Virus record (IMG/VR): IMGVR_UViG_3300031774_000148
Location: 1 to 24,260 of that record
Reading direction: 5' to 3' (one strand)
DNA from: a virus
DNA: 24,260 nucleotides
Shown here in pieces: positions 3,801 through 22,551 of the stretch. Numbering within the stretch: the stretch's first letter is position 1; every line of letters starts with the position of its first letter. The position numbers and the translations under genes are program-made. The notes under the pieces were generated by a model, which made no database searches, was not told where the DNA came from, and saw nothing but the letters and a program-made list of their open reading frames with translations.

Positions 3801-3965
3801 AAATTAAATACATTAAAATTACAATTAGATAAATTAAACAAGATTGGTGGTGTTGATGCTATAGTTCCAAGTGAAGGAATAGTGTTCAAGTATAAAGGAA
3901 AGACTTATAAATTTACAGGTGCATTTGCTCCAATAAATCAAATCACAGGTTTAATTTATTTTTAG
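819..3965 (+). CDS. Nucleotidyltransferase-ligase fusion, possible protease-processed polyprotein
   Basis: A 1048-residue multidomain protein; GTG start with AGAGG at 808-812. Residues 22-170 form an HxGH-superfamily nucleotidyltransferase: GRFQPFGPHH (28-37) matches the GxFxPxHxGH nucleotide site and SGTSMR (162-167) the distal S/TxxR motif, as in NMN adenylyl- and cytidylyltransferases. Residues 285-545 hold a small beta domain (IGDTVRMGKFKNKKV) and a region I cannot assign. Residues 647-1048 look like a covalent nucleotidyltransferase of the DNA/RNA ligase type: EKLDGQ (687-692, predicted AMP-accepting K688), FMNLEVMW (768-775), FHGALVYDD (791-799), EGIVFKYKG (1019-1027) and KTYKFTG (1028-1034). 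Candidate gp21-type sites are ILE14/A, QLSE284/G, ILTE547/V and LLME646/G; the last falls just before the ligase domain. Substrates are unknown; an NAD- or RNA-repair role would be inference. The large insert before motif IV is unusual for small RNA ligases. Confidence 0.85.
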   Translation: MNKLVEEIIKPILEANSNIKKVVGVYGGRFQPFGPHHYKTYKWLTKQVDEAYITTSNIKKPPRHPMNYKEKVRHMTKMGVPSNRIIVEKTPYVANNLSKKYNKDTTAFVYVFGAKDAGRLGGSGKYYKDYKKNKKNLEGFEKHGYYLVAPHVSISVGGKEVSGTSMRELLGSDKYDDKQRAKLFKKMFGYYDKGVFQMMVNKFKKLFEWDNTKEKPKNPKHFDKKNRDLLQDVENWLKKGSKKDRELKLKISKLYSKAFKQMPGSANQLKIRKEIEKLRNQLSEGVDLPIEIGDTVRMGKFKNKKVVIKKIEWNEKGDLLINGRPAMKFRLEKKAEVEEGYPNEEDMKKIRKRVKKARSKSDSSKEYQYHPIDEFLIHTDISKIFEVSNTGTDGIQGVDSGPSLMFKNAEHYKGRGDMEAEKLGWIVINYILQGDVDSLPPDESEMLDGWPMGPHNSVSYLPAGIGTGTTPNNQENLTGAKGYDKWVRAMRSTAEEVGYELMKFTKQDRDTRKQIAKDTVDTIKQQEKEEVEENVFSKDWWDDILTEVSAKTKKFKQKLMRRGIKIRYDKEKAQQDLQQKYGGQGEVVGKKFGLRKAYYAVPKKGFKKDTKPTITINKKEMDKLHTDKQIEKGNLRVLYKEGLLMEGGAYGHMAHPFDDKDLTFGDLKKIIENGLGGTLSREDGVTEKLDGQNIMISWKDGKLIAARNKGHIKNGGKTALDTKGIISKFKGRGDIKDAFVFAMKDLEKAIKSLSDKQKEKIFNNGYNFMNLEVMWPKSENVVNYDKAELVFHGALVYDDKGTVKGEVKGSGRILAGMIKQRNQNIQKKYSIGKPVFLDVPKHQDFSKMKSKFLGKLSKLQSKFGLSDNDTLGLYHQKWWEQFIIKNIGQPLPNVLRGLTLRWAFFDKSFKIPEIKKHIKDEKKLEWVLKFDKQNHQKQVKENMKPFEELFFGVGAEILKNVKGFMAANPKKSVQSIRKKLNTSIENVKASGDKKKLNTLKLQLDKLNKIGGVDAIVPSEGIVFKYKGKTYKFTGAFAPINQITGLIYF

Positions 3966-9221: not shown

Positions 9222-9236
9222 TATATTTATATATGA
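9222..9236 (+). promoter_or_regulatory. Candidate late promoter, copy 2
   Basis: ATATTTATATA at 9223-9233 followed by TGAAT, in the 81-nt gap between portal and the core-protein operon. The ATG of the next gene is at 9279, about 45 nt downstream. Same 11-mer as at 3966, 17264, 20147 and 20847. Confidence 0.65.
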
Positions 9237-9278: not shown

Positions 9279-10154
9279 ATGCGTAAAGTTAAACACAATA
9301 AAATCCGCAATACTGGTCTATTGTTTGAATGTTTACTTAGACAGATTACATCTGATGTATTAAACAAAGATAATAATAGTAAAGCGGTATCTATCGTTAA
9401 AGATAAATTTAACGAAAATACGGAGTTAGGTAAAGAACTTGCTCTGTATAATATTTTAATTACAAAGAAATTTAAATCAGACTCAAAAGCTGATTATTTT
9501 ATAAATGAGGTTATGAAAACAAGGGGTGATTTAAATAACTCTACACTTCGTAGAGAGAAATATAATTTGATTAAAGAGATTCAGTCAAATTATGATTTAC
9601 AAAAATTTATGTCTTCCAAAGTTCCAAACTATAAGGTTTTTGCTTCTATTTATAAATTATTCGAATACAACACTTTATCACCTGATGAAAAAACTGAGTC
9701 GTTTTTCAATATCGTTGAACATGTTACAACTGAAGATAAAAGTATTAAATTATCAGAAACTGTTCATACTTTACCAGATGATGAAGATTTAAGAATCCTT
9801 ACTTACAGAACTCTTTTAGAAAAATTCAATCAAAAATATACAAAATTAAGTGGAGCTCAAAAGAACTTACTTAGAGAGTATATCAATAATGTATCTAATA
9901 CTAATTCATTAAAAGATACCTTAAAAGAGATTGTAAAGGGGCTAAAAAACGATTTAAAAACACACTCTAAAAATCTTAAAGATAAAGTTGTAAAAATCAA
10001 AATGAGTGAAGCTATAAAATCTATTGACAAATTCTGTGGTATAGAAGATAAATCAGATGTTGTTAAAGATGAATATGTTATTCAGACAATGAGATACTTA
10101 GAACTTGTAAAGGAAGTGAAAAAAAGTGGAAATAAAAAACAGAAAGTTATTTAA
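9279..10154 (+). CDS. Helical protein of unknown function downstream of portal
   Basis: 291 residues, almost entirely helical and basic, starting MRKVKHNKIRNTGLLFECLL, with no membrane segment and no catalytic motif that I recognise. It is the first gene after candidate promoter copy 2 and lies where T4 has its prohead core genes 67 and 68, but at 291 residues it is much larger than those. I recall similar proteins of unknown function after the portal in marine T4-like phages. Shine-Dalgarno GGGGA lies at 9267-9271. The last 29 nt overlap the next gene. A structural or assembly role is inference from position. Confidence 0.75.
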   Translation: MRKVKHNKIRNTGLLFECLLRQITSDVLNKDNNSKAVSIVKDKFNENTELGKELALYNILITKKFKSDSKADYFINEVMKTRGDLNNSTLRREKYNLIKEIQSNYDLQKFMSSKVPNYKVFASIYKLFEYNTLSPDEKTESFFNIVEHVTTEDKSIKLSETVHTLPDDEDLRILTYRTLLEKFNQKYTKLSGAQKNLLREYINNVSNTNSLKDTLKEIVKGLKNDLKTHSKNLKDKVVKIKMSEAIKSIDKFCGIEDKSDVVKDEYVIQTMRYLELVKEVKKSGNKKQKVI

Positions 10155-10431
10155 AGAGTTAATTAAAAAATTAACCCTTGAACTTTTAGACGAAGAAAGT
10201 TTAGAAGAAATATCCACAACTGCTGGTGTAGATGGATATTCCACACCAAACGCTTTTAGTTCAAAAAAGGACGAAAAGAAAAAGAAAAAAAGATTAAAAA
10301 AGAGCACTGGTTACTCATGGGTAAATGAAGCTCTTGATGATAAAGATTTAAAACAAATAACAAAATTAATAAGAAATGTCGTTGGTGATATATTGAGAGA
10401 TATATGGCTTAAACGAACAGCTTGGAAATAG
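10126..10431 (+). CDS. Putative prohead core protein with protease-type sites
   Basis: 101 residues from a GTG start inside the end of the previous gene. An amphipathic leader (RKLFKELIKKLTLELL) leads to SLEE28/ISTTAGVDGY, a fit to the (L/I)xE gp21 rule; a second candidate is WVNE68/ALDD. Between them lies a lysine tract (KKDEKKKKKRLKK, about 47-59). The C-terminal helix reads LIRNVVGDILRDIWLKR. Size, charge and position between portal and protease resemble T4 core proteins gp67/gp68. I recall the STTAGVDGY segment recurring in marine T4-like phages. If both sites are cut, a 28-residue leader, a 40-residue Lys-rich peptide and a 33-residue helical peptide would result. Confidence 0.7.
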   Translation: MEIKNRKLFKELIKKLTLELLDEESLEEISTTAGVDGYSTPNAFSSKKDEKKKKKRLKKSTGYSWVNEALDDKDLKQITKLIRNVVGDILRDIWLKRTAWK

Positions 10432-10456
10432 GAGATAATAAATGTCAAATTATGTA
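10429..10456 (+). promoter_or_regulatory. Strong ribosome-binding site shared with the capsid gene
   Basis: The 28 nt from TAGGAGATAATAA through ATG and the first five codons differ at one base from 18368-18395, the start of the major capsid gene. Strong AGGAGA with 6-nt spacing to the ATG. The shared DNA includes the coding start (M-S-N-Y-V), so it may reflect duplication. Confidence 0.7.
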
Positions 10457-10771
10457 GCAGATGGAAATAAGCAAGTACCTAATAGTCCAACAATACAAGG
10501 TACTCAAGTTAGTCGTGCTGCTTGTCCCGTAGGAAATACTGTAGTAAAAAGACCATCATATGTTAACATTAATACTGTTGGCACATATGCTTTTTTATAT
10601 GAAACAACAGCTTCTATTGGAGGAACGACTACTGCTGGTTTTGTAACTGGTTCAATTGTTGTAGCAAATCATGGTAATGTAAAATTAGATATAAATCCTC
10701 TTGCTTGGACAAGATGTGATGCTGCAAATGCAGTCGGACAAGTAACATTTGTATATGTGAGGACAAGATAA
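10442..10771 (+). CDS. Small probable structural protein with capsid-like start
   Basis: 109 residues, beta-rich and Gly/Thr-rich (TYAFLYETTASIGGTTTAGF, VTGSIVVANHGN), with no signal peptide or membrane segment. It ends in a strand, VTFVYVRTR. Its translation-start region is nearly identical to that of the major capsid gene, implying very high expression. A small, highly translated beta protein beside the prohead protease could be a head decoration or outer-surface protein; this is inference, and no family is recognised with confidence. Its stop overlaps the protease start by 1 nt (TAATG). Confidence 0.7.
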   Translation: MSNYVADGNKQVPNSPTIQGTQVSRAACPVGNTVVKRPSYVNINTVGTYAFLYETTASIGGTTTAGFVTGSIVVANHGNVKLDINPLAWTRCDAANAVGQVTFVYVRTR

Positions 10772-11397
10772 TGAAAGATATAATTGTAGATTACATACCA
10801 TTTGAAATAACACCTCAACAAATCAATGAGTCAATGAAAAATAATGATGGAAGATTAGTTGTTAAGGGTGTATTGCAAAGAGCAGAAGCTAAAAATCAAA
10901 ACGGAAGAGTTTATCCAAGAGAAACCTTAGTCAGAGAAGCCAAAAAATATGCTGAGATTCAAATTGCTGAACGAAGAGCATTAGGTGAACTTGACCATCC
11001 AGATTCTTCTGTTGTTAACTTAAACAATGTATCACATAATATACTTGAAATGCATTGGAAAGGTAATGATTTAGAAGGAACTGTTGAGGTTCTTGGAACA
11101 CCAGCTGGAAACATCTTAAAAGAATTATTTAAATCAGGTATTAAACTTGGTATATCTTCGAGAGGACTTGGTTCAGTAAAAGAAATGAATGAAGATGATT
11201 CAGTAGAGGTTCAACCAGACTTTGAACTTATTGCTTTTGATTTCGTATCAAATCCATCTACACACGGAGCTTTCTTATCTCCAACAAATGAAGGAAAATT
11301 AAACGAAAGTGCGGGTGCTTGTGATTTAGCAACTGGTACTTGTTGTCACGATTGTAAAGTTGAATCTATAATTAACGATATATTCAGAGGAGAATAA
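10771..11397 (+). CDS. Prohead core protease (gp21-like)
   Basis: 208-residue serine protease of the T4 gp21 family (Peptidase S80), close to T4 gp21 (212). It degrades the scaffold and trims capsid and internal proteins after (L/I)xE. Family motifs: KNQNGRVYPRETL (41-53), GELDHP (72-77, predicted catalytic H76) and LGISSRGLGSV (126-136, predicted nucleophile S129 or S130). The stretch FDFVSNPSTHGAF (156-168) is the usual next conserved block. Near the C-terminus, E-G-K-L-N-E179/S180 fits the enzyme's own cleavage rule and the cassette repeated in the polyproteins nearby, so it is the probable self-processing point. The released tail would be 29 residues with C184, C191, C192, H193 and C195, a possible metal site. 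The upstream gene overlaps by 1 nt. Confidence 0.93.
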   Translation: MKDIIVDYIPFEITPQQINESMKNNDGRLVVKGVLQRAEAKNQNGRVYPRETLVREAKKYAEIQIAERRALGELDHPDSSVVNLNNVSHNILEMHWKGNDLEGTVEVLGTPAGNILKELFKSGIKLGISSRGLGSVKEMNEDDSVEVQPDFELIAFDFVSNPSTHGAFLSPTNEGKLNESAGACDLATGTCCHDCKVESIINDIFRGE

Positions 11398-11398
11398 G

Positions 11399-11707
11399 AT
11401 GGATTATAAATCTTTAATGGGATATAATGATAAGAAGAAAAAAGAATCAAAACCTAAACAGAATAAAGTATTGGAATCTATCAAAGATGAGTTTAATATA
11501 AATGAAGGTCCTGCTTACGAATACAAAAAACATTCCAAAAAAATAGACAAATCATTAAAAGAATTACAGAAAAATTATTTAGAATTTTATGAAACTTTAA
11601 GAAAAAAAGGACTTCACGATGAAGCTGCTGACTTTCTTGATAACTATAAAAAGAATGTAGTTGGATTTACTAAAAAATATAAAAAAGATTTCGGAAATTT
11701 ACTATAA
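11399..11707 (+). CDS. Small helical head-core or internal protein candidate
   Basis: 102 residues, very lysine-rich. A basic leader (KKKKESKPKQNKVLESIKDEF) is followed by NINE36/GPAYEYKKHSKK, matching (L/I)xE/G for gp21. The remainder is a helical hairpin-like sequence (KIDKSLKELQKNYLEFYETL; DEAADFLDNYKKNVVGF). If cut, a 66-residue basic helical protein would remain. I recall the GPAYEYKK segment in other marine phage proteins of unknown function. It starts 1 nt after the protease stop and overlaps the next gene by 1 nt, so it is in the core of the head operon. Packaging in the head is inference. Confidence 0.7.
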   Translation: MDYKSLMGYNDKKKKESKPKQNKVLESIKDEFNINEGPAYEYKKHSKKIDKSLKELQKNYLEFYETLRKKGLHDEAADFLDNYKKNVVGFTKKYKKDFGNLL

Positions 11708-12468
11708 TGCCATTCAAATCCGAAAAACAACGGAAATGGATGCACGCAAATGATCCTGAAATGGCCAAGAAATGGGAAAAGAAAGAGAAAAAAATGAAAC
11801 GAGTTAAAGAATTGATAAAGAAAATGGTTCGTGAAGAGTTGGCTGAAATGAAAGAGTCAAAACTTAATGAATTTAACAAGTCACATTTCCTTAATCTAAT
11901 TAAACAAGAAATAGAAAGTCTTAAAGGTCAGATTGCATATGCTAAAGATAAGGTTAATTATAAAGGAACAGCTGATTGGGAAAAGAAAGAATTTAAAGCA
12001 GTTTTAAAAGATAAGGTAAAAGATTTATCTAAAACAATAAAACATTATAAAAGAGTTCAGAAACTTAAAGAAGGAAAACTTACAGAAGCTAAAGAACCAC
12101 TATGGACAAAAGAAACTGTTAAAGATGCAATCAAACAAATCAAAAAAGGTTTAAAAAATGCAGTTCCTTACTTAGATGGTATTGGTACTGGTTTTGGTGG
12201 TGAATCTATTATAGGTAAAATATCATTAGATGATAAAAAAACTTGGACAAATAATATATTAGAAAATTCAAGATGGGCTTTAATACATTTCCATCCTGAT
12301 GGGACACTTGATACGATTCGTATGCATGGTTGGGGTGATTTTAAAACAAGAAAAAAAGTTCCAATTTTAAGAAAATCAAAAAACAAAAGTATAAAACAAG
12401 CTGTTGATAGAATGGGTAAATACTTTACTGTTGTTAGATTAAAACACCCAGATACAAAGGGTAAATAG
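11707..12468 (+). CDS. Putative internal-head polyprotein with two cleavage cassettes
   Basis: 253 residues in three modules. Residues 1-55 begin MPFKSEKQRKWMHANDPEMA, a short basic motif I recall from many small phage proteins, followed by a helix (RVKELIKKMVREELAEM) and SKLNE55/F. Residues 56-127 are a helical basic module (NLIKQEIESLKGQIAYAK...KTIKHYKRVQKL) ending E-G-K-L-T-E127/A. Residues 128-253 are a mixed alpha/beta module (NSRWALIHFHPDGTLDTIRM...KYFTVVRLKHP) of unknown fold. The 20-nt DNA encoding the second site is repeated exactly at 16411-16430. The gene lies just downstream of the protease. Cleavage into pieces of about 55, 72 and 126 residues is predicted, not shown; an uncut protein is the alternative. 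Confidence 0.7.
   Translation: MPFKSEKQRKWMHANDPEMAKKWEKKEKKMKRVKELIKKMVREELAEMKESKLNEFNKSHFLNLIKQEIESLKGQIAYAKDKVNYKGTADWEKKEFKAVLKDKVKDLSKTIKHYKRVQKLKEGKLTEAKEPLWTKETVKDAIKQIKKGLKNAVPYLDGIGTGFGGESIIGKISLDDKKTWTNNILENSRWALIHFHPDGTLDTIRMHGWGDFKTRKKVPILRKSKNKSIKQAVDRMGKYFTVVRLKHPDTKGK
12070..12090 (+). repeat. E-G-K-L-T-E-A cassette, copy 1
   Basis: GAAGGAAAACTTACAGAAGC plus T, identical over 20 nt to 16411-16430 and one mismatch from 16738-16758; a looser copy (GAAGGAAAATTAAACGAAAG) lies at 11290-11309 in the protease gene. All are in the same reading frame relative to the protein motif. Confidence 0.85.
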
Positions 12469-12469
12469 A

Positions 12470-12494
12470 ATGATTAAATTAAAAGACATATTAA
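12470..12494 (+). repeat. Targeting-leader repeat, copy 1
   Basis: ATGATTAAATTAAAAGACAT and the next 5 nt (ATTAA), identical to 22551-22575. The copy at 12817-12840 differs at one base over 24 nt. The conservation includes synonymous positions, so it goes beyond protein constraint. Confidence 0.85.
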
Positions 12495-12820
12495 ACGAAG
12501 CTTCAACAAGTGAATCATATCAACAGATGAAAAATATGTTGAAAAATGGTTTACCAATGATATTTCCAAGAGAAGAAGGTGAACTTCAAGAAAAATATTA
12601 TTCTAAAACAGTACATAATGGTGATGTTGGTGCATTAATTCAAGCAGTAATGGTTGGTGACCCTAAAGCTATAAAATTATGGCCAAAAGCTGAAAAGGTA
12701 ATAAAAAAGAATATAGCTGATTTCTATAAAGAAGATATTATGATTAAGAAAAAATTAAATATTGAAAGAAATAAAGTATTGATGATGATGGGTAAATATG
12801 GAAAGAAATTAAAGGTATGA
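12470..12820 (+). CDS. Putative internal head protein with 10-residue targeting leader
   Basis: 116 residues starting MIKLKDILNE10/A. The leader length, amphipathic character and (L/I)xE/A end match the capsid-targeting sequence of T4 internal proteins (MKTYQEFIAE/A in IPIII). The rest is basic and helical with a central stretch DVGALIQAVMVGDPKAIKLW and a Lys-rich C-terminus (MMGKYGKKLKV). No enzyme motif is recognised. The first 25 nt are identical to those of the gene at 22551 and one mismatch (over 24 nt) from the gene at 12817. It follows the polyprotein by 1 nt and overlaps the next gene as ATGA. Head targeting is inferred from the leader and from the nearby gp21-type protease. Confidence 0.72.
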   Translation: MIKLKDILNEASTSESYQQMKNMLKNGLPMIFPREEGELQEKYYSKTVHNGDVGALIQAVMVGDPKAIKLWPKAEKVIKKNIADFYKEDIMIKKKLNIERNKVLMMMGKYGKKLKV

Positions 12821-13089
12821 TTAAATTAAAAGACTTATTATCAGAAGGAAAATGGGGAACTAAAGGTAAATATCTAACTATGCCAGATGGTGAAATATCA
12901 TCAATACCTGGTGATAGAGATAGAGATTCTATTGTATTCAGTATTGGTCAATCTACATTTCGTCTTAATAGTTTTGCAGGTGGAAAGAAAATGTCTATAG
13001 TTGGTGATTACCAAAAAGATTTTAAAAATGTAAATGATTTAGTCAAATGGTTAAATAAAAATAAAGCTAAATATTTAGGAATAGATTAA
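12817..13089 (+). CDS. Putative internal head protein with 10-residue targeting leader
   Basis: 90 residues starting MIKLKDLLSE10/G, the same leader type as the preceding gene. After the leader comes GKWGTKGKY, similar to the GKMSIGKGKY that follows the leader at 22551, so these two may be related beyond it. The mature part would be about 80 residues, with beta strands (DSIVFSIGQSTFRLNSF) and a C-terminal helix (VNDLVKWLNKNKAKYL). No family is recognised. Its ATG overlaps the upstream TGA (ATGA) and its stop overlaps the next ATG (TAATG), so it is translationally coupled on both sides. Confidence 0.72.
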   Translation: MIKLKDLLSEGKWGTKGKYLTMPDGEISSIPGDRDRDSIVFSIGQSTFRLNSFAGGKKMSIVGDYQKDFKNVNDLVKWLNKNKAKYLGID

Positions 13090-13613
13090 TGAAACTTCAA
13101 GACTTATTAAAAGATTTAGAATTAGGTAAGGTTTATACTGATAAAGACAGAAAACCTTTTAAAGTTAATGAAGACAAATGTAATTGTAATTGTAATTGTC
13201 ATTCAGATAACATAGATGAGGCTGGTGCAATCGGAGGAGCTCTTGATTTGACTGATATGAATACATCTTATGTAGCTCCAAAAAGAGATACTGATGGTGT
13301 TAAAAATCAAGGAGTATTTTTACAAAAGTTTTCTTCTAAAGAAGCTAAAGCAATTATTGATGGTAATTTAAAGTTATGGGCAAAAGAATTAAGAAAAGTT
13401 CAATATAAAGTAATAAAAGATTGGATGTCAGCTGCTAAAAGTGGTAAGATTGATTTCTTTGATATTATACGAGGATTAAAGACAGGTGATGTTTCAAGAG
13501 CACATCAATATGAAACAGATTTTTTAGTTTCAGTACTAACACGAGATAAAATTATAGACAGATTTAGAAAGTATTTTGGTGGTAAAAAAGGTAAAAGTGG
13601 AAGGCGTAAATAA
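13089..13613 (+). CDS. Cys-rich-leader protein of unknown function in the head operon
   Basis: 174 residues. The start MKLQDLLKDL resembles the nearby leaders, but without E at residue 10. Residues 31-38 read CNCNCNCH, four alternating cysteines and a histidine, likely metal-binding, encoded by three TGTAAT units. Then NIDE44/AGAIGGALDL is a candidate gp21 site, so the metal-binding leader could be removed. The remainder is helical and basic (EAKAIIDGNLKLWAKELRK; RKYFGGKKGKSGRRK at the end), suited to nucleic-acid contact. The Gly/Ala stretch after the site is short and not a clear membrane segment. Function unknown; overlaps its neighbours by 1 nt. Confidence 0.68.
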   Translation: MKLQDLLKDLELGKVYTDKDRKPFKVNEDKCNCNCNCHSDNIDEAGAIGGALDLTDMNTSYVAPKRDTDGVKNQGVFLQKFSSKEAKAIIDGNLKLWAKELRKVQYKVIKDWMSAAKSGKIDFFDIIRGLKTGDVSRAHQYETDFLVSVLTRDKIIDRFRKYFGGKKGKSGRRK

Positions 13614-13900
13614 TGGCGACGAATAAAGATATACTGAAGAAATTAGATTGTGTTGAAACAAAATTAATGAATGGTGAATTGGAAGAGATTCATACTACTG
13701 TAAAAGAAATTAAAGAAGTGTTGTTAGATCCAGAAGATGGTATTATTGTGAGAGTAAACAAAAATACTTATTGGAGAAAACAAATCAATATACAAGAAAT
13801 AGAAGAATTAAAAAGTTTTAAACAAAATGTAACTCATGCATTATGGGGTATTTACTCATTAGTGTTGGGTGTAATCGCTAAACTAATATTTTGGGAATAG
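13613..13900 (+). CDS. Small coiled-coil protein with C-terminal membrane segment
   Basis: 95 residues: a helical coiled-coil-like N-terminus (DILKKLDCVETKLMNGELEE... about 5-35), a middle region ending EELKSFKQNV, and one C-terminal transmembrane segment (ALWGIYSLVLGVIAKLIFW, about 76-94). This topology resembles small phage tail-anchored proteins such as XhlA-type haemolysin/holin partners, which also pair a coiled coil with a C-terminal membrane span. A lysis role is possible but uncertain because the gene is inside the head operon. TAATG overlap upstream. Confidence 0.68.
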   Translation: MATNKDILKKLDCVETKLMNGELEEIHTTVKEIKEVLLDPEDGIIVRVNKNTYWRKQINIQEIEELKSFKQNVTHALWGIYSLVLGVIAKLIFWE

Positions 13901-13913
13901 GGAGACTAAAAAA

Positions 13914-14501
13914 ATGGCAAAATTAAAAAACATACTACAAGAGGTATTCGAAGAATCACCAAAAGTAGATAAATACAAAGTAGTTGAAGGTGTTAAGAAC
14001 TTTGGTATTGTTGGAAAACAACTTTACAACAATAATAACATAGTTGAAACAGCTAAACAACTTGCTGAAATTGCAGAATCTGCTCATCATCATATCTTAG
14101 GTGAAAATGATGATTGGTTTGATAAGATTTCAGTAAACAAAAATATGAAAACACTTAAAGGTAGTGTTGTAGAATTTACAAAAACTGCTAAAGAGGCAAA
14201 TATGTTAAATCAAAGATTAACTGCTCTATATGAAGATATAGGACATGTATTGAATCGTTATTATGATATAGATGAAGCTCTTGACCCAGTTGATACTGAT
14301 AAAGTAGAACCTGAAGATGACTTTGAAGATAGAGAAGATAAGGACATCGATAATGATGGTGATTCTGATGATTCAGATGAGTATCTTCACAAAAAAAGAC
14401 AAGCTATTACTAAATCTGTTAAAAAAGAAAGTAAAAGTTTAAAAGATGCTGGTGGTGTTGTTGGAATACCTTCACTTGGAGATATGATTAGAGGTAAATA
14501 A
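13914..14501 (+). CDS. Head-operon protein with targeting-type leader and acidic Ca-loop-like tail
   Basis: 195 residues starting MAKLKNILQE10/V, a variant of the 10-residue leader with V after the scissile Glu. Residues 25-115 are helical (VETAKQLAEIAESAHHH; NMLNQRLTALYEDIGHVL), then YDIDE121/ALDP is a second candidate site. Residues 129-158 are very acidic and contain DIDNDGDSDDSDE (144-156), which matches the D-x-D-x-D-G pattern of EF-hand or dockerin calcium loops. The C-terminus is basic and ends in a short hydrophobic segment (GIPSLGDMIRGK). A core or scaffold-associated role fits the context. Shine-Dalgarno GGGAG at 13900-13904. Confidence 0.7.
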   Translation: MAKLKNILQEVFEESPKVDKYKVVEGVKNFGIVGKQLYNNNNIVETAKQLAEIAESAHHHILGENDDWFDKISVNKNMKTLKGSVVEFTKTAKEANMLNQRLTALYEDIGHVLNRYYDIDEALDPVDTDKVEPEDDFEDREDKDIDNDGDSDDSDEYLHKKRQAITKSVKKESKSLKDAGGVVGIPSLGDMIRGK

Positions 14502-14812
14502 TGACTTTTGTGGATTTTATTATTTATAGTCTATTTATATGGCAAGTAGTATTAGGTTGTTATGTTTTACTTATATGGTGTTCAAAAAACTTTAAGTTTC
14601 ACAAGTCTCCCAACTTAAACATCGGTGAGGTGATAAAAACTTCAACGATAGAGGAAACAAAAGTTAAAAAGAATATGGGGCCAATAGAAGTAGATGTAAA
14701 GAGTAATGTGATAATGGACACAAAATCAGATGAAGTTAGTGTGAAGTTAGACGAAAAAATTAAGGGTAAGGTTAAAACCCAAAAAGATAAACTAAAGAAA
14801 CTAAGAGGTTAA
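14501..14812 (+). CDS. Single-span membrane protein upstream of the actin-like gene
   Basis: 103 residues with one N-terminal hydrophobic segment (FIIYSLFIWQVVLGCYVLLI, about 6-25) and a long charged tail ending KLKKLRG. The tail is lysine-rich with short acidic parts and is probably cytoplasmic given the basic residues just after the span (KNFKFHK). It starts in a TAATG overlap and ends 1 nt before the actin-like ATPase, so the two are likely coupled; a membrane adaptor for a filament is a reasonable but untested idea. No family is recognised. Confidence 0.65.
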   Translation: MTFVDFIIYSLFIWQVVLGCYVLLIWCSKNFKFHKSPNLNIGEVIKTSTIEETKVKKNMGPIEVDVKSNVIMDTKSDEVSVKLDEKIKGKVKTQKDKLKKLRG

Positions 14813-14813
14813 T

Positions 14814-15860
14814 ATGGCTAAAGGCTTAGATTGTGGAACAAGTTATTATATAACAGCCACAGAAAAAAGTATGAAAAAACAAAGGAATGTATTCTTAACC
14901 GTTGACGGAGATGCAAATCAAGTTAAACGAATGTTAAAAAGACAAAGAATACCTTTTGTAGAAAAAGCAGGTAAGGTTCACATCGTTGGACAACATGCTT
15001 TTAACTACGCACAAATATTTAGTACGACAGAATTAAAGAGACCAATGTCTCAAGGGTTATTAAACCCGAAGGAAAAAGATGCACTACCTGTATTGAATGC
15101 GATTATAGGTGAGTTGGTTGGAAAAGCTAAAAAAGATGAAGTATGTGTTTATTGCATACCAGCAAAACCAATCGACCAAACAAGAGAAGTTTCTTATCAC
15201 GAAGATGTGTTGAAGCAGATTATTGAAACATATGGATACAATGTCAAAGTTATAGAGGAGAGTGTTGCTCTCGCTTACGAAGGCCTTGTAGATAATGACT
15301 TGACGGGGATAGCAATATCTATGGGTGCCGGGATGTGTAATGTATGTGTGATGTATCAAGGGATGAGTGCACTCTCCTTTTCTGTAGCAAGAGGTGGAGA
15401 TTGGATAGATGAAAATGTAGCAAGTGATTGTGGTGTTACAAAGGCAAAAGTGATAAGTGTTAAAGAGAACTCAAGTAAGTTAGATTTAACAAAAAGTGCA
15501 ATAAATGATATTTATAATGAGGGAAGTGATGAGTATAACATCATTAATGCTATTAGAAGTTATTACGGAGCATTAGTGAATTACTTGTTGACAAACCTAA
15601 CAAATCAGTTTAACAATGCTGAAAGTGTACCAAACTTTCCTGAATCCATACCAATTGTATTTGGTGGTGGAACAAGTTTAGTAAAGGGTTTTATGGAAGT
15701 TGTAGGGGAACAATTTAATCAAGATGAATTTCCTATTGATGTGGAGAAATTTACATTAGTGGAAGATGCTCACACAGCAGTCGCAAGAGGTTGTTTGAGT
15801 GAAGCACAATTAATTGAAGAAGAGGAGCAAGAGGGTGAAAATCAAGAAGAGTCAGCTTAA
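14814..15860 (+). CDS. Actin-like ATPase (MreB/ParM/Hsp70 superfamily)
   Basis: 348 residues with the actin-fold nucleotide motifs in order: phosphate 1 LDCGTS (5-10), connect/phosphate region KVIEESVALAYEGL (about 144-157), phosphate 2 ISMGAGMCNVCVMYQG (about 167-182), SVARGGDWIDENVA (about 190-203, like the GGD-hDE segment of MreB) and adenosine motif PIVFGGGTSLVKGF (about 277-290). In phosphate 2 the usual first Asp is Ser (I-S-M-G-A-G), so hydrolysis may be altered. The acidic C-terminus follows a CLSE/A match at about residue 330. Probably filament-forming; DNA or capsid positioning would be inference. Its codon use looks slightly different (more GGG, GTG and ACG), hinting at transfer. 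Its membrane-anchored neighbour at 14501 and location inside a head operon are unusual. Confidence 0.8.
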   Translation: MAKGLDCGTSYYITATEKSMKKQRNVFLTVDGDANQVKRMLKRQRIPFVEKAGKVHIVGQHAFNYAQIFSTTELKRPMSQGLLNPKEKDALPVLNAIIGELVGKAKKDEVCVYCIPAKPIDQTREVSYHEDVLKQIIETYGYNVKVIEESVALAYEGLVDNDLTGIAISMGAGMCNVCVMYQGMSALSFSVARGGDWIDENVASDCGVTKAKVISVKENSSKLDLTKSAINDIYNEGSDEYNIINAIRSYYGALVNYLLTNLTNQFNNAESVPNFPESIPIVFGGGTSLVKGFMEVVGEQFNQDEFPIDVEKFTLVEDAHTAVARGCLSEAQLIEEEEQEGENQEESA

Positions 15861-16986
15861 AGAATTAATCAAACAAACTATCGTTGATTTAACTGAAAAA
15901 ACATTTGGTTCAAAAGCACAATATGATGCTTATAGAAAAAAACATAACTTGAAACCCGGTAGTAAACATAAAGTAGCTGGTAAAACAGTTACTGTTAGAG
16001 ACACTAAAAAAATATCAAAGTCTGCTAAGAAAAAAGCTGACAAATTTGCAGCTGCTCAAAATGCTAAATTAGATGCTGCTGAAAAAGCAGCAAAGAAAAA
16101 AAAGAAATCAACATATACTCATAAAGGTGATGATAAATTGGTTAGTCTTAAAGTTAGAAAAGAATCAGTTAGTAAAAGTAGAAGATACACTGTAAAAGAA
16201 GTAAGAACATGGATGAAAAAATTAGAAGAGAATCGTTATAAGAAAGTATATAATTCAGACGCTCGTAGAGTTGCTTGGATGGTGAATAACGAAGGTGTTG
16301 AATTATCTGAAATGCCACAATCAATGAGTAAGAAATGGACAAAGGCTCAATACGGAAGAGAAAGATATTTGGCTACTGAGTTTTTGAAATCTAAATCAGA
16401 ACAAATGACTGAAGGAAAACTTACAGAAGCAATTAGTGGTGCTGATAGAAAAATACTATTCATTCTTGTTAGAGAAATAGTTAGAAATCTTAAATCACAA
16501 ATTAAAAATATGGATGTGAATAATAAATCTCATTTGAATAGAGTTGGTAGTTCAATTCTTGCTATCATAAGAGCTATGTCATATTCACCAGATAATGTGA
16601 ATTATAAAAACTTTAAAAAGTATTTTCCAAAGAACTTTAATAGTAAATTAATTCAAAAGAAATTAAAACAATTCCATAGTCAAAACGACAAAGTCCAAGT
16701 AACATTAGTCACACAAGCTATAAAGAATGAACTTGGTGAAGGAAAACTTAAAGAAGCTTATAGGTCTCAATCAATATTTTTTGATAAAAAAGATAAATCA
16801 AAATTAGAAAAACTTTTAAAAAAACATAAAGGAAAATTTCCATTCAATCCATCAGGTGAATCAGTTGTAAATTGGTCATTAAATGATAAAGGTAGTAAAG
16901 GACTTGAGTGGAGTGGTATTCCAAAAGCAAATTATAATAAAGCAGTAGAATTTTTTATGAAATACAAACTAAATCCAAGAGGTTAA
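15835..16986 (+). CDS. Putative internal-head polyprotein with three cleavage-type sites
   Basis: 383 residues from the GTG at 15835, chosen because GAGGAG (15822-15827) lies 7 nt upstream; it overlaps the ATPase gene by 26 nt. The leader (KIKKSQLKELIKQTIVDLTE21/K) resembles an amphipathic targeting helix. Residues 22-198 are Lys/Ala-rich with a tract of Ala-Lys repeats (about 60-92) and end E-G-K-L-T-E198/A. Residues 199-307 are a helical module (KILFILVREIVRNLKSQIK) ending E-G-K-L-K-E307/A. Residues 308-383 are a small basic alpha/beta module (SQSIFFDKKDKSKLEKLLKK). The two cassettes are nearly identical in DNA to the one at 12070. Predicted pieces: 21, 177, 109 and 76 residues. The module functions are unknown. 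Confidence 0.72.
   Translation: MKIKKSQLKELIKQTIVDLTEKTFGSKAQYDAYRKKHNLKPGSKHKVAGKTVTVRDTKKISKSAKKKADKFAAAQNAKLDAAEKAAKKKKKSTYTHKGDDKLVSLKVRKESVSKSRRYTVKEVRTWMKKLEENRYKKVYNSDARRVAWMVNNEGVELSEMPQSMSKKWTKAQYGRERYLATEFLKSKSEQMTEGKLTEAISGADRKILFILVREIVRNLKSQIKNMDVNNKSHLNRVGSSILAIIRAMSYSPDNVNYKNFKKYFPKNFNSKLIQKKLKQFHSQNDKVQVTLVTQAIKNELGEGKLKEAYRSQSIFFDKKDKSKLEKLLKKHKGKFPFNPSGESVVNWSLNDKGSKGLEWSGIPKANYNKAVEFFMKYKLNPRG
16411..16431 (+). repeat. E-G-K-L-T-E-A cassette, copy 2
   Basis: GAAGGAAAACTTACAGAAGC plus A, identical over 20 nt to 12070-12089 although 4.3 kb away in a different gene. Confidence 0.85.
16738..16758 (+). repeat. E-G-K-L-K-E-A cassette, copy 3
   Basis: GAAGGAAAACTTAAAGAAGC plus T, one mismatch from copies 1 and 2; encodes the second site of the same polyprotein. 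Confidence 0.8.
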
Positions 16987-16987
16987 T

Positions 16988-17239
16988 ATGAGAAAAAGAA
17001 AGAACTTTAGGAAACGACCTAAAGATAATTCAGAAGGTTTACAAGTAAATGTTTTTAACAACAATGTAGAAGAAGCATTAAAGAGATTGAAAAGAAAAGT
17101 AAAAAACTCTGGTATGTTACAAGAATTAAGAAAAAAAGAATATTTTGTAAAACCATCGGTTATTAAAAGAGAAAAAATAAATCTTGCAAAATTAAGAAAT
17201 CATTATAAAGTCTTAAAAGAAAAAGAAAATGATAAATAA
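16988..17239 (+). CDS. rpsU: Ribosomal protein bS21 homologue
   Basis: 83 residues. The core VFNNNVEEALKRLKRKVKNS (about 22-41) then GMLQELRKKEYFVKPSVIKR matches bS21: the N-terminal strand, V-x-x-A-L-R/K-x-x-K-R helix, G-[IVM]-[LF]-x-E-[LMV]-[RK] turn and the R/K-E/R-x-[FY]-[EV]-K-P-S motif, followed by a basic tail. Length fits the family (about 60-80). bS21 sits at the 30S platform near the 16S rRNA 3' end, where mRNA Shine-Dalgarno pairing occurs. Phage-encoded bS21 is known from large marine phages; the exchange of host bS21 to favour phage mRNA is a published hypothesis, not shown here. It precedes the scaffold/capsid operon and follows the polyprotein by 1 nt. Confidence 0.9.
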   Translation: MRKRKNFRKRPKDNSEGLQVNVFNNNVEEALKRLKRKVKNSGMLQELRKKEYFVKPSVIKREKINLAKLRNHYKVLKEKENDK

Positions 17240-17288: not shown

Positions 17289-17312
17289 ACACCGTCTACC
17301 CTTTTACGGTGT
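17289..17312 (+). promoter_or_regulatory. Leader hairpin upstream of the scaffold/capsid operon
   Basis: ACACCGT (17289-17295) and ACGGTGT (17306-17312) form a perfect 7-bp stem with a 10-nt loop (CTACCCTTTT). It begins about 15 nt after promoter copy 3, so it would lie at or near the 5' end of the capsid mRNA and could stabilise it. No U-tract follows, so it is not an intrinsic terminator. Confidence 0.55.
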
Positions 17313-17383
17313 CTAAATATAACTTAACAAACATTAAGTTTCCTAATAAACTTATTCCAAAAAATACATTGAGGAGAAATATC

Positions 17384-18364
17384 ATGGGAGATATTTTAAA
17401 AGAAGCTATCGCTGATGCTAAAGCAGTTAGAGAAACTGCATTAGAGAACGCAAAAATGGCTTTAGAAGAAGCATTCACACCTCAAATCAAATCTATGCTT
17501 TCTGCTAAGTTAAAGGAAGAAGAACTTGAAGAAGATGAAGTTCCTGTAACTGAAGAAGAAGATGAAATGGATGATGATGAAGGTGAAGCTGAAGAAGGTT
17601 ATCATGAAGAAGATGAAATGGGTGACGAAGAAGAAGTACCTGCTGAAGAAGGTGAACACGGTGATGAAGAAGTTGCTGATGAAGTTCCTGCTGAAGAAGG
17701 TTCTTATTCTGAAGAAGATGAAATGGGTGAAGAAGAAGAAGTTGAAGAAGAAAATCTTGACTTAGAAGCTGTTATCGCAGAACTTGAGGCTGAATTGTCT
17801 GAAGGTGAAGATGATGATGATGATGAAGTTGAAGAATCTACTGAAGCTGTTTCTGAAGATACTGTTGAAGAATCTGATGAACCTGTTGAAGAGTCTACTG
17901 AAGAAGTTGACGAAGAAATCGAAATAGACGAAAATGCTCTAACAGAAGAAGAGGACGAAGAAGAAGTTGAAGAATCTAATACTTCTGCACTTGAATCTGA
18001 ACTTAAAGAGTATAAAGAAGCTGTTTCTTTCTTAAAAGACAAACTTCACGAAGTAAACATCTTGAATGCTAAATTATTATTTACAAATAAACTATTTAAA
18101 GCTTATTCGTTAGATAATAATCAGAAACTTAAAGTGGTTGAAACATTTGACAGAGCACAAACTACAAGAGAGATTAAACTTGTTTATTCTACACTTGCAG
18201 AACAATTCTCTGACAATAGTTCAATCGTAACAAAAAAATCAATAAGTGAATCAGCTAGTTCTGCTGTTGCATCAACAAAACCTGCTCCAGAAGCTAAGAA
18301 AGTAATTTCTGAAGAGGTTGAAGTTGCTAACAGGTTTAAAAAACTTGCTGGTTTAATTAAATAA
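17384..18364 (+). CDS. Prohead scaffold protein (gp22-like)
   Basis: 326 residues from the ATG at 17384 with GAGGAG (17371-17376) upstream; I rejected the GTG at 17309, which would read through the leader. It begins MGDILKE7/AIADAKAVRETALENAKM, a helical N-terminus with a candidate gp21 site. Residues about 43-205 are extremely acidic (Glu/Asp) with internal repeats (EEDEMGDEEEVPAEEG-like units). The C-terminal part is a coiled coil (LESELKEYKEAVSFLKDKLH) and helices, ending FKKLAGLIK. An acidic, helical protein immediately upstream of the capsid gene fits gp22, the core scaffold degraded by gp21; it is longer than T4 gp22 (about 270). It is co-transcribed with the capsid gene. Confidence 0.87.
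   Translation: MGDILKEAIADAKAVRETALENAKMALEEAFTPQIKSMLSAKLKEEELEEDEVPVTEEEDEMDDDEGEAEEGYHEEDEMGDEEEVPAEEGEHGDEEVADEVPAEEGSYSEEDEMGEEEEVEEENLDLEAVIAELEAELSEGEDDDDDEVEESTEAVSEDTVEESDEPVEESTEEVDEEIEIDENALTEEEDEEEVEESNTSALESELKEYKEAVSFLKDKLHEVNILNAKLLFTNKLFKAYSLDNNQKLKVVETFDRAQTTREIKLVYSTLAEQFSDNSSIVTKKSISESASSAVASTKPAPEAKKVISEEVEVANRFKKLAGLIK
17552..17740 (+). repeat. Imperfect acidic repeats inside the scaffold gene
   Basis: GAAGAAGATGAAATGG occurs three times (ending near 17570, 17621 and 17726) and CCTGCTGAAGAAGGT twice (17639-17653, 17688-17702). They encode acidic E-E-D-E-M-G and P-A-E-E-G units, suggesting local duplication; the repeat length is irregular. Confidence 0.7.
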
Positions 18365-18367
18365 TAT

Positions 18368-18395
18368 TAGGAGATAATAAATGTCAAACTATGTA
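18368..18395 (+). promoter_or_regulatory. Strong ribosome-binding site of the major capsid gene
   Basis: TAGGAGATAATAA then ATG and the first codons; one mismatch in 28 nt from 10429-10456. AGGAGA spacing is 6 nt to the ATG. Confidence 0.75.
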
Positions 18396-20081
18396 AACGA
18401 TGCGTTATTAGACGCGTCTCCTTATAAAAAACAACAAGACGAATCAAAACATCTTGTCTCTAAATGGGATAAGACTGGTCTTCTTGATGGTTTGAATGAG
18501 GATTTTCAAAAAAGTGGTATGGCTGTTATGCTTGAAAACCAAGCAAAACAACTTATCAATGAGAACTCTGCAACTGGTGGAGGTGCTGGTGCTGGTAGTG
18601 CTGGTACGGCTGGTTCAGAGGAATGGTCTGGTGTTGCACTTCCGTTAGTTCGTAGAATTTTCGGTGAGATTGCAGCTCAAGACTTTGTAAGTGTACAACC
18701 AATGAACTTACCATCTGGTCTAGTATTTTACTTAGACTTTAAATATGGTACAAACACTGGTGTGTATGGTAACTCAAATGGACTATCTGTTGGTTCAAGT
18801 GTAGATTCACTTGCTGGTAAATCAGGTCCTAACTCTCCATCAGGTTCATCTGCTCCTTACGGTGTTGGTGGTTTGTATGGTGAAGGTAGATATGATTACT
18901 CTATCAATGTTAAAGCAGGTAATGCTTTAGCACTTGGTACAGTACAAGTTGGTTCAGAATCAGGAACTGCTGCTTCAACAGCTTCAGCTGATTATAAAGA
19001 CATCAACTTCAACCAAGAGTTTAGTGCTTCTTTAGCGGCTTCTAAACTTATCAAAGTTACTTTTGATGCTAATGCATTAGATAGTAAATTTGATGCAAAA
19101 TCTGTTAGAGCTATTAATGTTGTTAGTGGTACAGCTGATATTAATTCTGTATTACCACAATTTACAAAACTAGCTTCAAATGGAACTGATGTAACATTAG
19201 TTGTATCTGCTTCTTCATTGGCTAACTTATCAGGCGATTCAATCAAGATTGATATGCCGTTACAACCAACTGAAGCTGATAGAGGTGACTTTGAAGATAC
19301 AACAGGAACAACTGCTGCTACAATAGGTATTCCTGAAGTTGATTTACAACTTAAATCTCAAGCTATCGTTGCGAAAACAAGAAAACTAAAAGCTGTATGG
19401 TCTCCTGAGTTAGCTCAAGACTTGAATGCTTATCATTCTGTTGACGCTGAAGCTGAGTTAACTTCAATGTTAAGTGAGTATATTTCAATGGAAATTGATT
19501 TAGAAATACTTGATATGTTGATTACAGATGCTACTACAGTTGATTACTGGTCAGCTACACCTGGTGAAGATTATGAAGGTGCAGGTGCTACTGAAGCTAA
19601 CTGGAACATTACAACATTCTACGGAACAAGATATGAATGGTATCAAACTCTTTTAGGTAAAATCCAAAAGGTTTCTAACGAAATCCAAAGATTAACTATG
19701 AGAGGTGGTGCTAACTTCGTAGTTGTTTCACCGACTGTTGCTACTATCTTGGAATCAATTCCTGGATACTCAGTTTCTACAGATGGAAATAAATCTCAGT
19801 TTGCTGCTGGTGTTCAAGTTGCAGGAAGTCTAAATAATAGATTTACTGTTTATAAGAACCCATATATGACTGAAAATACTGTACTTGTAGGTTTCAGAGG
19901 AAGTAACTTCCTTGAAACAGGTGCTGTATATTCTCCATATGTACCACTAATTATGACTCCAATGGTATATGATCCAGAAGACTTCACTCCAAGAAAAGGT
20001 GTGATGACTCGATATGCTAAGAAAATGATTAGGCCTGAGTTCTATGGTAAAATCCATTGTAAAGACTTAAACTTAGTATAA
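18381..20081 (+). CDS. Major capsid protein (gp23-like)
   Basis: 566 residues, a little longer than T4 gp23 (521). After an N-terminal propeptide rich in charged residues, the sequence MLENQAKQLINE61/NSATGGGAG is the expected gp21 processing position (T4: FLTE65/A), with Asn rather than Ala after the cut. Then VQPMNLPSGLVFYLDFKYG (105-123) is the conserved gp23 block (T4 VQPMNSPTGQVFALRAVYG). Residues about 170-290 are a Ser/Ala/Thr-rich beta insert, a candidate surface-exposed domain. C-terminal segments PYVPLIMTPMVYDPEDFTP and MIRPEFYGKIH are also family-like. It follows the scaffold by 16 nt and is closed by the terminator at 20106. Confidence 0.96.
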   Translation: MSNYVNDALLDASPYKKQQDESKHLVSKWDKTGLLDGLNEDFQKSGMAVMLENQAKQLINENSATGGGAGAGSAGTAGSEEWSGVALPLVRRIFGEIAAQDFVSVQPMNLPSGLVFYLDFKYGTNTGVYGNSNGLSVGSSVDSLAGKSGPNSPSGSSAPYGVGGLYGEGRYDYSINVKAGNALALGTVQVGSESGTAASTASADYKDINFNQEFSASLAASKLIKVTFDANALDSKFDAKSVRAINVVSGTADINSVLPQFTKLASNGTDVTLVVSASSLANLSGDSIKIDMPLQPTEADRGDFEDTTGTTAATIGIPEVDLQLKSQAIVAKTRKLKAVWSPELAQDLNAYHSVDAEAELTSMLSEYISMEIDLEILDMLITDATTVDYWSATPGEDYEGAGATEANWNITTFYGTRYEWYQTLLGKIQKVSNEIQRLTMRGGANFVVVSPTVATILESIPGYSVSTDGNKSQFAAGVQVAGSLNNRFTVYKNPYMTENTVLVGFRGSNFLETGAVYSPYVPLIMTPMVYDPEDFTPRKGVMTRYAKKMIRPEFYGKIHCKDLNLV

Positions 20082-20888: not shown

Positions 20889-22073
20889 ATGTCAAAATTT
20901 AATTTTATATATGAAGATCCAACATCAAGTAATCAAGTAACTGGTTCAACACCACATGCTATCTATGATGTAGATAGTGAATTTCAAAGCGATAGTTTAA
21001 CAACTTGTAAATATGTTGCTAGAAAACTTGGACATCCAGTGATGCAACTTGAATTTAATAGTGGTTCAATATACGCTTGTTTCGAAGAAGCAGTATCGGA
21101 ATACTCACAACAAATCAATCATTACAATACAAAGAATTGGATGTGGGAACATTATGGAAACACCACTACTGGTTCTAATTTCAGTTCAACTGGTTCACAT
21201 CAAGCTGAGTCACCAAATGGTGGAATGTCTTTATTTACATTATCAGAACAATACGGACAAGCTGTTAATGTTGGTGGAAACACTACAATGTATACTGGTT
21301 CAATAACTTTAACAGGCTCTCAACAAGTATATGATTTAACAAGTGAGGGTAATTTTGAATCATCTGTTACTGGAACTAATAGGATAGAAATTCAAAGAAT
21401 ATTAAATGATGGCCCTGCTGCTATATCTAAATTTTATGACCCATTTGCTGGAACTTATGATAATATAGAATTATTGGATTCATTTGGATTCGGTAATGTA
21501 TCACCAGCAGTATCTTATATATTAAGACCAATATCATATGATTTGGGTAGAGCAAATGCAATTGAAACAAATGATAAGATTAGAAAATCAGCATATTCAT
21601 TTGAATTAATTAATAATAAATTAAGAATATTCCCATTACCAACTGATAAAGATGCTGGTAACAAGGTACATTTCCATTATTATAAGAGGGATGATAAAAT
21701 TGATGTAACACAAAATTATACAAGTAATAAAGTATCAGACCCATCTAATATTCCATATAAGTTTATTACCTATACAGAGATAAATTCAATGGGTAGAAAT
21801 TGGATTAGAAAATACACATTAGCATTAGCAAAAGAACTACTTGGTATCATCAGAAGTAAATATGCTTCAATGCCACTTCCAAATGGTGAAGTATCACTTG
21901 ATGGTGAATCATTAAAGGCGGAAGGTAGAGAGGAAAAAGCAAACCTTTCAGAAGAGTTAAATTTATTCTTAGAAGCTGTTAGTAAAAAAGAACAAGCATT
22001 AACAGAACAAGAAGTTGCTAATTCTCAACAAGAAGTATTGAATAAAGCTCCATTAAAAATATACATAGGATAA
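20889..22073 (+). CDS. Putative neck / head-completion protein (gp13 position)
   Basis: 394 residues. Residues 43-58 (KYVARKLGHPVMQLEF) and 63-75 (IYACFEEAVSEYS) resemble the N-terminus of neck proteins found at the gp13 position in marine T4-like phages, with a K-L-G-x-P motif and a following helix. The middle is Ser/Thr/Gly-rich beta sequence, and the C-terminus is helical (ANLSEELNLFLEAVSKKEQAL). It is larger than T4 gp13 (about 309), mostly by the insert at about 90-150. Position after capsid and before a second connector-type protein supports a head-tail junction role; direct recognition is moderate. SD GGAGA at 20878-20882. Confidence 0.62.
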   Translation: MSKFNFIYEDPTSSNQVTGSTPHAIYDVDSEFQSDSLTTCKYVARKLGHPVMQLEFNSGSIYACFEEAVSEYSQQINHYNTKNWMWEHYGNTTTGSNFSSTGSHQAESPNGGMSLFTLSEQYGQAVNVGGNTTMYTGSITLTGSQQVYDLTSEGNFESSVTGTNRIEIQRILNDGPAAISKFYDPFAGTYDNIELLDSFGFGNVSPAVSYILRPISYDLGRANAIETNDKIRKSAYSFELINNKLRIFPLPTDKDAGNKVHFHYYKRDDKIDVTQNYTSNKVSDPSNIPYKFITYTEINSMGRNWIRKYTLALAKELLGIIRSKYASMPLPNGEVSLDGESLKAEGREEKANLSEELNLFLEAVSKKEQALTEQEVANSQQEVLNKAPLKIYIG

Positions 22074-22077
22074 ATAA

Positions 22078-22551
22078 ATGTCACAAACAAAACCATTTTT
22101 CATACCACAAAAAGAATTTGATTTGATTAATCAAATGAATGAAGAACTGATTGACGAAATTGTCGGACAATCAGTTGATATTTATAAAGTGAATATTGAA
22201 AGAACAGAAGACAATGTTTATGGTGAATCAACTGCTAAATATTATGATATTGGATTTAGAGTAAATTGTTTAATTAATTATAATGAACCCGAAGTGATTC
22301 AAGACGAGTTTGGTGCGGATACTAATTCTTCAATTGAAATGTTTTTCCAAAGAGAAAATCTATCAAGTGGTTCTCTTAACTTTTATCCTGAGACTGGTGA
22401 TATTGTTGATTGGAATGATTTCTATTGGGAAATAAATGGAACAACAGAACCACAATTATTCGCAGGACATCCAAACTTTAAACACAACATCGTAGCAACA
22501 GCACATCGTTCAAGATTATCATCTTTACAAATTGAAGAGAGACCAAGATAA
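22078..22551 (+). CDS. Putative neck / head-closure protein (gp14 position)
   Basis: 157 residues, starting MSQTKPFFIPQKEFDLINQMNEELIDE, then an alpha-beta sequence (VDIYKVNIERTEDNVYGES; YDIGFRVNCLINYNEPEVI) and a C-terminal beta region (GDIVDWNDFYWEINGT; HNIVATAHRSRLSSLQI). I recall proteins with the FFIPQKE start at this position in marine T4-like phages, where a neck or head-closure role is assumed. It is shorter than T4 gp14 (about 256). It begins 4 nt after its neighbour and overlaps the internal-protein gene by 1 nt (TAATG). Confidence 0.58.
   Translation: MSQTKPFFIPQKEFDLINQMNEELIDEIVGQSVDIYKVNIERTEDNVYGESTAKYYDIGFRVNCLINYNEPEVIQDEFGADTNSSIEMFFQRENLSSGSLNFYPETGDIVDWNDFYWEINGTTEPQLFAGHPNFKHNIVATAHRSRLSSLQIEERPR

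Follow-up and report, generated by a model that had tools for sequence, protein, structure and literature searches.

Why should a phage keep the gene of an actin-like protein, directly behind that of a small membrane protein, among the genes for its heads? Phage-made cytoskeletons are already known, with filaments that place DNA (AlpC, TubZ) or transport heads (the PhuZ tubulin), and the actin described here adds one member to an established family. The phages in question form a group from the ocean. An earlier note on this DNA, made from the sequence alone, had suggested a role in positioning capsids or DNA at the membrane. In the open-licence papers that we searched by titles and abstracts, we found neither an actin gene among head genes nor a phage volactin.

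The window and its head genes

The DNA analyzed, called the window below, is a stretch of 24,260 bases from the virus record IMGVR_UViG_3300031774_000148, and its genes all lie on one strand. PHROGs and Pfam identified a large terminase, a portal, a prohead protease, a Gp23-type capsid protein, and a head–tail adaptor, which confirms the head-gene location given in the earlier note. The two open reading frames described there also exist, one encoding the 103-residue membrane protein that we call U and, one base further on, one encoding the 348-residue actin-like protein (Table 1).

Table 1. Positions of the features discussed, in window coordinates.
Feature	Position	Strand	Basis
Candidate late promoter, TATTTATA, in the gap before gene block 9279-17239, to which U and actin belong	9224..9231	+	
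Prohead protease (gp21 type), in the gene block of U and actin	10771..11397	+	phrog_207, E 9.2e-54
U, membrane protein with a single span and a C-terminal tail, 103 aa	14501..14812	+	hydrophobicity, AlphaFold, homologues
C-terminal tail of U (residues 55-102), motif shared with D	14663..14806	+	D-only profile
Volactin-family actin-like protein, 348 aa	14814..15860	+	Pfam PF25216, AlphaFold fold, PDB matches
Ser169 codon, replacing the phosphate-2 Asp	15318..15320	+	sequence; alignments to MreB and MamK
Acidic scaffold-like protein	17309..18364	+	composition and place before the capsid gene
Major capsid protein, Gp23 family	18381..20081	+	Pfam Gp23, 270.4 bits; phrog_138, E 2.9e-74
Head-tail adaptor (neck)	20889..22073	+	phrog_211, E 4.1e-13
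Neck/head-completion-like protein	22078..22551	+	homologues directly upstream of the D insertion

The capsid protein of the window matched those of Flavobacterium phage vB_FspM_immuto (Immutovirus) and Microcystis phage Mel-JY01 at 50% over 97–99% of the query, and that of Rhodothermus phage RM378 at 41.5% over 65% of the query. Gene order and neck genes are also common to the clade of the window and to these phages, and on such sequence grounds the window phage is classed as T4-type, distant from T4 itself and on the side of RM378, Immutovirus, and Mel-JY01. One relative (L088) lies on a MAG contig labelled Pelagibacter, which may be a binning error.

The scaffold-like protein, for which the PHROGs search gave no family match, has homologues in all 20 actin-bearing and all 30 actin-less loci compared. 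The head block further holds a gene for ribosomal protein bS21 (16988–17239; Pfam, 58.7 bits), with homologues in 20/20 loci with and 22/30 loci without actin, and the gene of another small protein, its membrane segment being C-terminal (13613–13900), which was found in 14/20 and 0/30 of these loci, respectively. Near the start of the window, positions 819–3965 encode a protein of 1048 residues with a cytidylyltransferase-like domain and, further on, a ligase-like EKLDGQN motif that was recognized by eye.

The element listed as candidate promoter is TATAAATA when read on the minus strand. Together, TATAAATA and TATTTATA occur 15 times against 4.3 expected, and 13 of these occurrences read TATTTATA on the plus strand. 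The form ATATTTATATA lies on the gene strand in five intergenic gaps (3967, 9224, 17265, 20148, and 20848), and the repeated intergenic element may be a late promoter of the window phage.

Many small proteins open with a leader of the kind of MIKLKDILNE or MKITKSKLKEIIREE, after which (L/I)xE often stands, including those encoded at 12470, 12817, 13914, 15835, and 22551 and others in related loci. The leader was found in 77 of 357 genes of 13 actin-bearing loci, where shuffled sequences let 4.5 be expected and a single case was seen at residues 41–70, and in 29 of 310 genes of 12 actin-less loci (3.5 expected). In T4, a capsid-targeting leader is removed by the prohead protease, and by analogy the leader seen here may likewise target proteins to the capsid and be cleaved by the prohead protease.

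Family, fold, and active site of the actin-like protein

The 348-residue protein matched the Pfam family PF25216 with 256.2 bits (E = 6.9e-76; curated cut-off 35), residues 1–331 covering positions 1–321 of the 321-position profile, and the Pfam profile MreB_Mbl gave 25 bits, below its cut-off of 27 for membership of MreB. We regard it as virtually certain that the protein belongs to the Volactin family, and this family is its closest relation instead of MreB, ParM, or AlpC, which the earlier note had named as yardsticks. AlphaFold predicted an actin fold (mean pLDDT 88.4, pTM 0.87), and the best solved structures were MamK (Z 27.6, rmsd 3.2, 297 residues aligned), BeeR (26.5), MreB (about 25), and eukaryotic actins. 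The actin-like ATPase fold given in the earlier note is supported. The Hsp70 and sugar kinase families, which the earlier note had named as the case against an actin, gave no Pfam match up to E = 1; the best 50 PDB matches were all of actin type, and in a viral library Hsp70-like proteins did appear, at lower rank. MamK lines up cargo and has MamJ as its partner, as MreB has RodZ. MamK, BeeR, and MreB have the closest solved folds but belong to other families and are cellular, and MamK and E. coli MreB carry an Asp at phosphate 2, where the window actin has Ser169.

The actin motifs are found at D6 (phosphate 1), E149 (connect 1), I-S169-M-G-A-G (phosphate 2), GGG 284–286 (adenosine), and D318 (connect 2), the names being the usual actin-fold terms. 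Alignment with E. coli MreB by hhalign placed S169 on the phosphate-2 Asp and E149 on the connect-1 Glu, in full agreement with the motifs and the serine that had been read from the sequence before. However, the serine is not peculiar to the window protein but fixed in the family. It was found in 67/67 distinct proteins of our first set, throughout 37 cellular Volactin loci, and in 45/45 rows of a comparison of six groups that took in archaea, bacteria, and phages (T4-type and huge phages, Planctomycetota, Thermoplasmatota, Pseudomonadota, and two others). As all Volactin members compared carry this serine, we consider it a mark of the family, a feature noticed here and not a published Volactin criterion. 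An active-site loss peculiar to the phage actin was thereby ruled out. The phosphate-2 Asp is thought to be necessary in actins, and with Ser in its place the protein may hydrolyze ATP slowly or not at all.

The lost Asp and the place of the gene among assembly genes would also fit an actin-fold ATPase that does not polymerize and serves as an assembly factor or switch in head building. We consider this very improbable, as the serine is present in all 45 members, the best-matching archaeal Volactins included, and as Haloferax volactin, whose own residue lies outside the comparison, is described as forming dynamic filaments with tips that touch the membrane (PMC10869688). This protein (VolA, HVO_2015, of Haloferax volcanii, PF25216) shares its sequence family with the window actin along the full length, but it is cellular, linked to cell shape, and without U or D; neither was found in the flanks of the cellular Volactin loci that we fetched.

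U is paired with the actin gene

A single segment of U is strongly hydrophobic (2.26 at residues 7–25), and the model of the protein comprises an N-terminal membrane helix (residues 3–30, pLDDT about 90–97), a disordered charged linker, and two short C-terminal helices, of which the membrane helix alone is confident, the tail being modeled at a pLDDT of 44–65. The earlier description of a single-span protein with a charged tail is thus borne out. Positive residues past the helix suggest that the tail faces the cytoplasm. Neither Pfam nor PHROGs gave a name to U, to the protein D described below, or to the 157-residue and 289-residue neck proteins.

A U gene was present in 72 of 84 actin loci, and in 68 of the 69 that had at least 500 nt upstream. 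In these 72 loci it lies at most 4 nt upstream of actin in 47, 5–500 nt upstream in 14, more than 500 nt upstream in 7, and downstream in 4. When U alone was used for the search and actin was left out, 56 of 61 new loci proved to have actin, and the other five end 0.4–2.7 kb past U. Among the loci searched with U or with the capsid protein, U without actin was not found in any that left room for the actin gene. The pairing is thus no coincidence, and together with the U-only search it ruled out that U is some general membrane protein without a relation to actin.

A second protein, D, carries the tail of U

In relatives of the window phage, the U profile detected a second gene, D, which lies 4.8–8.8 kb downstream of actin. 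D is soluble and has only its C-terminal tail of about 46 residues in common with U. The relation holds in both directions: a profile made from D only matched residues 55–102 of the window's U (32.8 bits, E = 4.2e-08), and a profile made from U only detected 16/16 D tails (E = 3e-12 to 4e-5). Comparison of the U and D tails by hhalign gave 98.5% across 46 columns at an identity of 48%; D tails scored 22.8–45.9 bits, against 12.2 bits for the highest-scoring among 1600 shuffled D proteins. The tail columns rank among the most conserved in both proteins; concerted changes between the U and D tails were not visible by eye.

D is inserted between two neck genes, with homologues in Mel-JY01 (36% and 33%), and precedes the tail sheath gene. 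In relatives that lack D, the homologue of the last neck gene of Table 1 abuts the next neck gene. From this arrangement, the window's own D would fall just past the end of the window. When D alone was used for the search, 4 of 80 loci had actin, placed 8.6–9.2 kb upstream, and 76 did not; this search says little about actin because all loci without it end within 8.3 kb upstream.

In another reading, the actin might position phage DNA or remodel the host cell in the manner of ParM or AlpC, with U as membrane anchor, and the tail of D would be a basic motif that binds nucleic acid or membrane and has no relation to actin. In agreement with this, the tails are indeed basic, the best PHROG of the actin, though weak, is a "partition protein" (E = 0.001), and AlpC of prophage CGP3, a phage actin-like protein that is co-transcribed with its partner AlpA, ties DNA to filaments directed at the membrane (PMC4446434). 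However, AlpA binds DNA, and AlpAC is described there as an early operon with a role in DNA replication and outside a head-gene context (PMC4446434), whereas the partner found here is a membrane protein, the Pfam scans of the neighbours revealed no adjoining adaptor gene and no family that binds DNA, and the location among head genes is clade-wide. Conservation of the tail over 46 columns also goes beyond what a loose basic stretch needs. We therefore judge a role in DNA placement or host remodeling to be improbable.

Actin, U, and D occur together

We also used a search anchored on the capsid protein and thus independent of actin, U, and D. It yielded 131 distinct loci; 42 of them reached 5 kb or more upstream and 6.5 kb or more downstream, and of these 40 lacked every one of the three genes and 2 had them all. 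In a direct count for D, restricted to loci with the neck gene and at least 700 nt before it, D was present in 27/27 loci with actin (25 distinct contigs, L135 and L271 being repeats of L018 and L031) and in 0/38 without; a further 94 loci (59 with D, 35 without) could not be judged for actin. The gap between the neck genes measured 322–2240 nt in 25/25 actin-bearing loci and -117 to 13 nt in 40/40 actin-less ones, which include two cultured phages. As the neck genes abut without space in all 40, it was ruled out that D had been overlooked in actin-less relatives. Among 15 actin loci that extend 9.2 kb or more downstream, four (L050, L052, L073, and L079) apparently lacked D; L050 and L073 end short of the full region of D and neck genes, L079 differs downstream, and the count given above was redone on loci with the neck gene, with these four left out.

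When 22 genes were compared, only U, actin, and D were present in every actin-bearing and in no actin-less locus (U and actin each 20/20 versus 0/30, D 4/4 versus 0/27). Exactly one U, one actin, and one D are present in each of three long virus records (113, 169, and 114 kb), and the whole genomes of the cultured relatives immuto, Mel-JY01, and RM378 contain none of the three. The huge phages LR756511 and LR745208 have a related actin and neither U nor D, and actin can therefore serve without them. In a capsid tree, the 29 rows with actin form one side of a branch (SH-aLRT 100). As the actin-bearing viruses are one clade, the trio represents a single gain that was jointly retained, and the counts are not independent events.

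For an analysis of co-evolution, we used 19 viruses with all six proteins and corrected the distances for the capsid, neck, and head-completion proteins. Partial correlations were 0.65 for U and D, 0.46 for actin and U, and 0.47 for actin and D (permutation P = 0.001–0.002). Those with the capsid protein were -0.03 for actin and -0.15 for U, and positive values were also obtained for actin and neck (0.27), actin and head-completion (0.39), D and neck (0.38), and U and neck (0.39). These distance correlations back the trio moderately. We consider it highly probable that actin, U, and D are functionally linked.

A link that bypasses actin must also be weighed, in which the tail would bind the portal or another head protein, U would anchor the start of the prohead, D would displace U when the neck is built, and actin would have a separate role nearby. 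The insertion of D between neck genes agrees with this, as do the U genes that do not adjoin actin (see above), and T4 offers a precedent: its proheads start on the inner membrane at a membrane-bound portal with gp40 and depart after cleavage (PMC9958956). T4 is comparable as a T4-type phage whose head assembly includes a stage at the membrane (PMC9958956), but its system works without actin. Portal, protease, scaffold, and neck genes are, however, common to 30–40 actin-less relatives that have neither U nor D, and U is never seen without actin where room permits. We therefore consider binding of the tail to a head protein, with actin apart, rather unlikely.

Spread of the Volactin family and codon use

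Genomes with a protein over the PF25216 cut-off numbered 59 of 149 in Planctomycetota, 12 of 116 in Thermoplasmatota, and 16 of 200 in the phylum of G007, the phage-like contig L088 of that genome being counted in. In the tree, the Volactins of T4-type phages form one clade on a long branch with a support of 100/100, and we conclude from this single long-branch clade that the actin gene is an old possession of these phages. Codon use had been taken as a possible sign of acquisition. The deviation itself was confirmed, actin being the most deviant of the window genes (z about 10; GC3 0.249 versus a mean of 0.172), with the capsid (z 8) and scaffold (z 7) genes likewise deviant. Over 12 loci, however, actin ranked first only in the window, third in L002, L016, and L066, and between 4th and 17th elsewhere, with z values of -0.3 to 2.6 in the lower-ranked loci (L027 0.0; L034 and L047 0.8; L050 -0.3). 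As the deviation is limited to the window and its close relatives, codon use does not show a recent acquisition of actin, in accordance with the one deep clade.

Several other members of the family deserve mention. In L121 (3945–10747), a Volactin-family gene is part of a gas-vesicle cluster, with GvpL/GvpF on both sides and an ArsA-type ATPase adjoining. Two huge phages and a contig labelled Actinomycetota also encode Volactins (L083, L084, and L120); L084 and L120 have a downstream gene in common, and L120 is therefore probably viral. The neighbours of the huge-phage actins remained without a name in Pfam and PHROGs, save for a weak tail-lysin match near the actin of L083. Upstream of the Planctomycetota volactins (L089, L098) lies a conserved, helical-looking protein starting with MESVNEIKEQLSARSRT, which matched no known family.

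A possible tether between membrane and neck

We propose that actin, U, and D would form a phage cytoskeletal unit that is made late in infection. The Volactin protein would bind ATP and form filaments. U would insert its N-terminal helix into the inner membrane and reach with a flexible linker into the cytoplasm, presenting a basic, partly helical tail at the end. D, with a tail of the same type, would sit on heads, at the neck or the portal vertex, and would accordingly be found in virions, and the tails of U and D would grip one and the same site of actin. Filaments or short oligomers could thereby join points on the membrane to the necks of virions, and heads might be held, released, or moved in a given direction; proheads begun on the membrane, for example, might depart for packaging and tail joining. 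This tether or transport model, in which the tails of U and D hold on to actin filaments at membrane and neck, is plausible as a whole, and we put it forward as tentative. The partner of the tail could also be the protein encoded at 15835 instead of actin; its gene is nearly clade-specific (20/20 actin-bearing versus 4/30 actin-less loci). The role in handling heads or DNA at the membrane that the earlier note had suggested is still the best reading and is strengthened by the D tail among the neck genes; its interpretation as a whole is partly supported.

We know of no established link between head and filament, even for PhuZ. In jumbo phages, procapsids are described as traveling from the membrane along the PhuZ tubulin, and a review suggested an adaptor between procapsid and filament (PMC8314001). 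Common to both systems would be a filament of the phage's own that, as proposed, takes charge of heads begun on the membrane, which in our case is read from genes alone; PhuZ differs in being a tubulin, and the sections of the review consulted describe no membrane and neck protein pair with a common tail (PMC8314001). The titles and abstracts of the open-licence papers searched likewise mention no tail shared by a membrane protein and a neck protein alongside an actin. The present system could be the first phage actin machine that tethers or transports virions, with one tail motif plugging membrane and neck into the filament, a claim that in its entirety we regard as doubtful.

What the genes themselves suggest is a link between head and filament, as a short tail is carried by a membrane anchor and by a neck protein, and only together with actin. 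This shared tail is small and in parts soluble, and it can be tested with peptides. The Volactin family, named from one archaeon, extends deep into bacteria and phages, and its members, as far as compared, share an active site without the Asp that is considered indispensable in actins.
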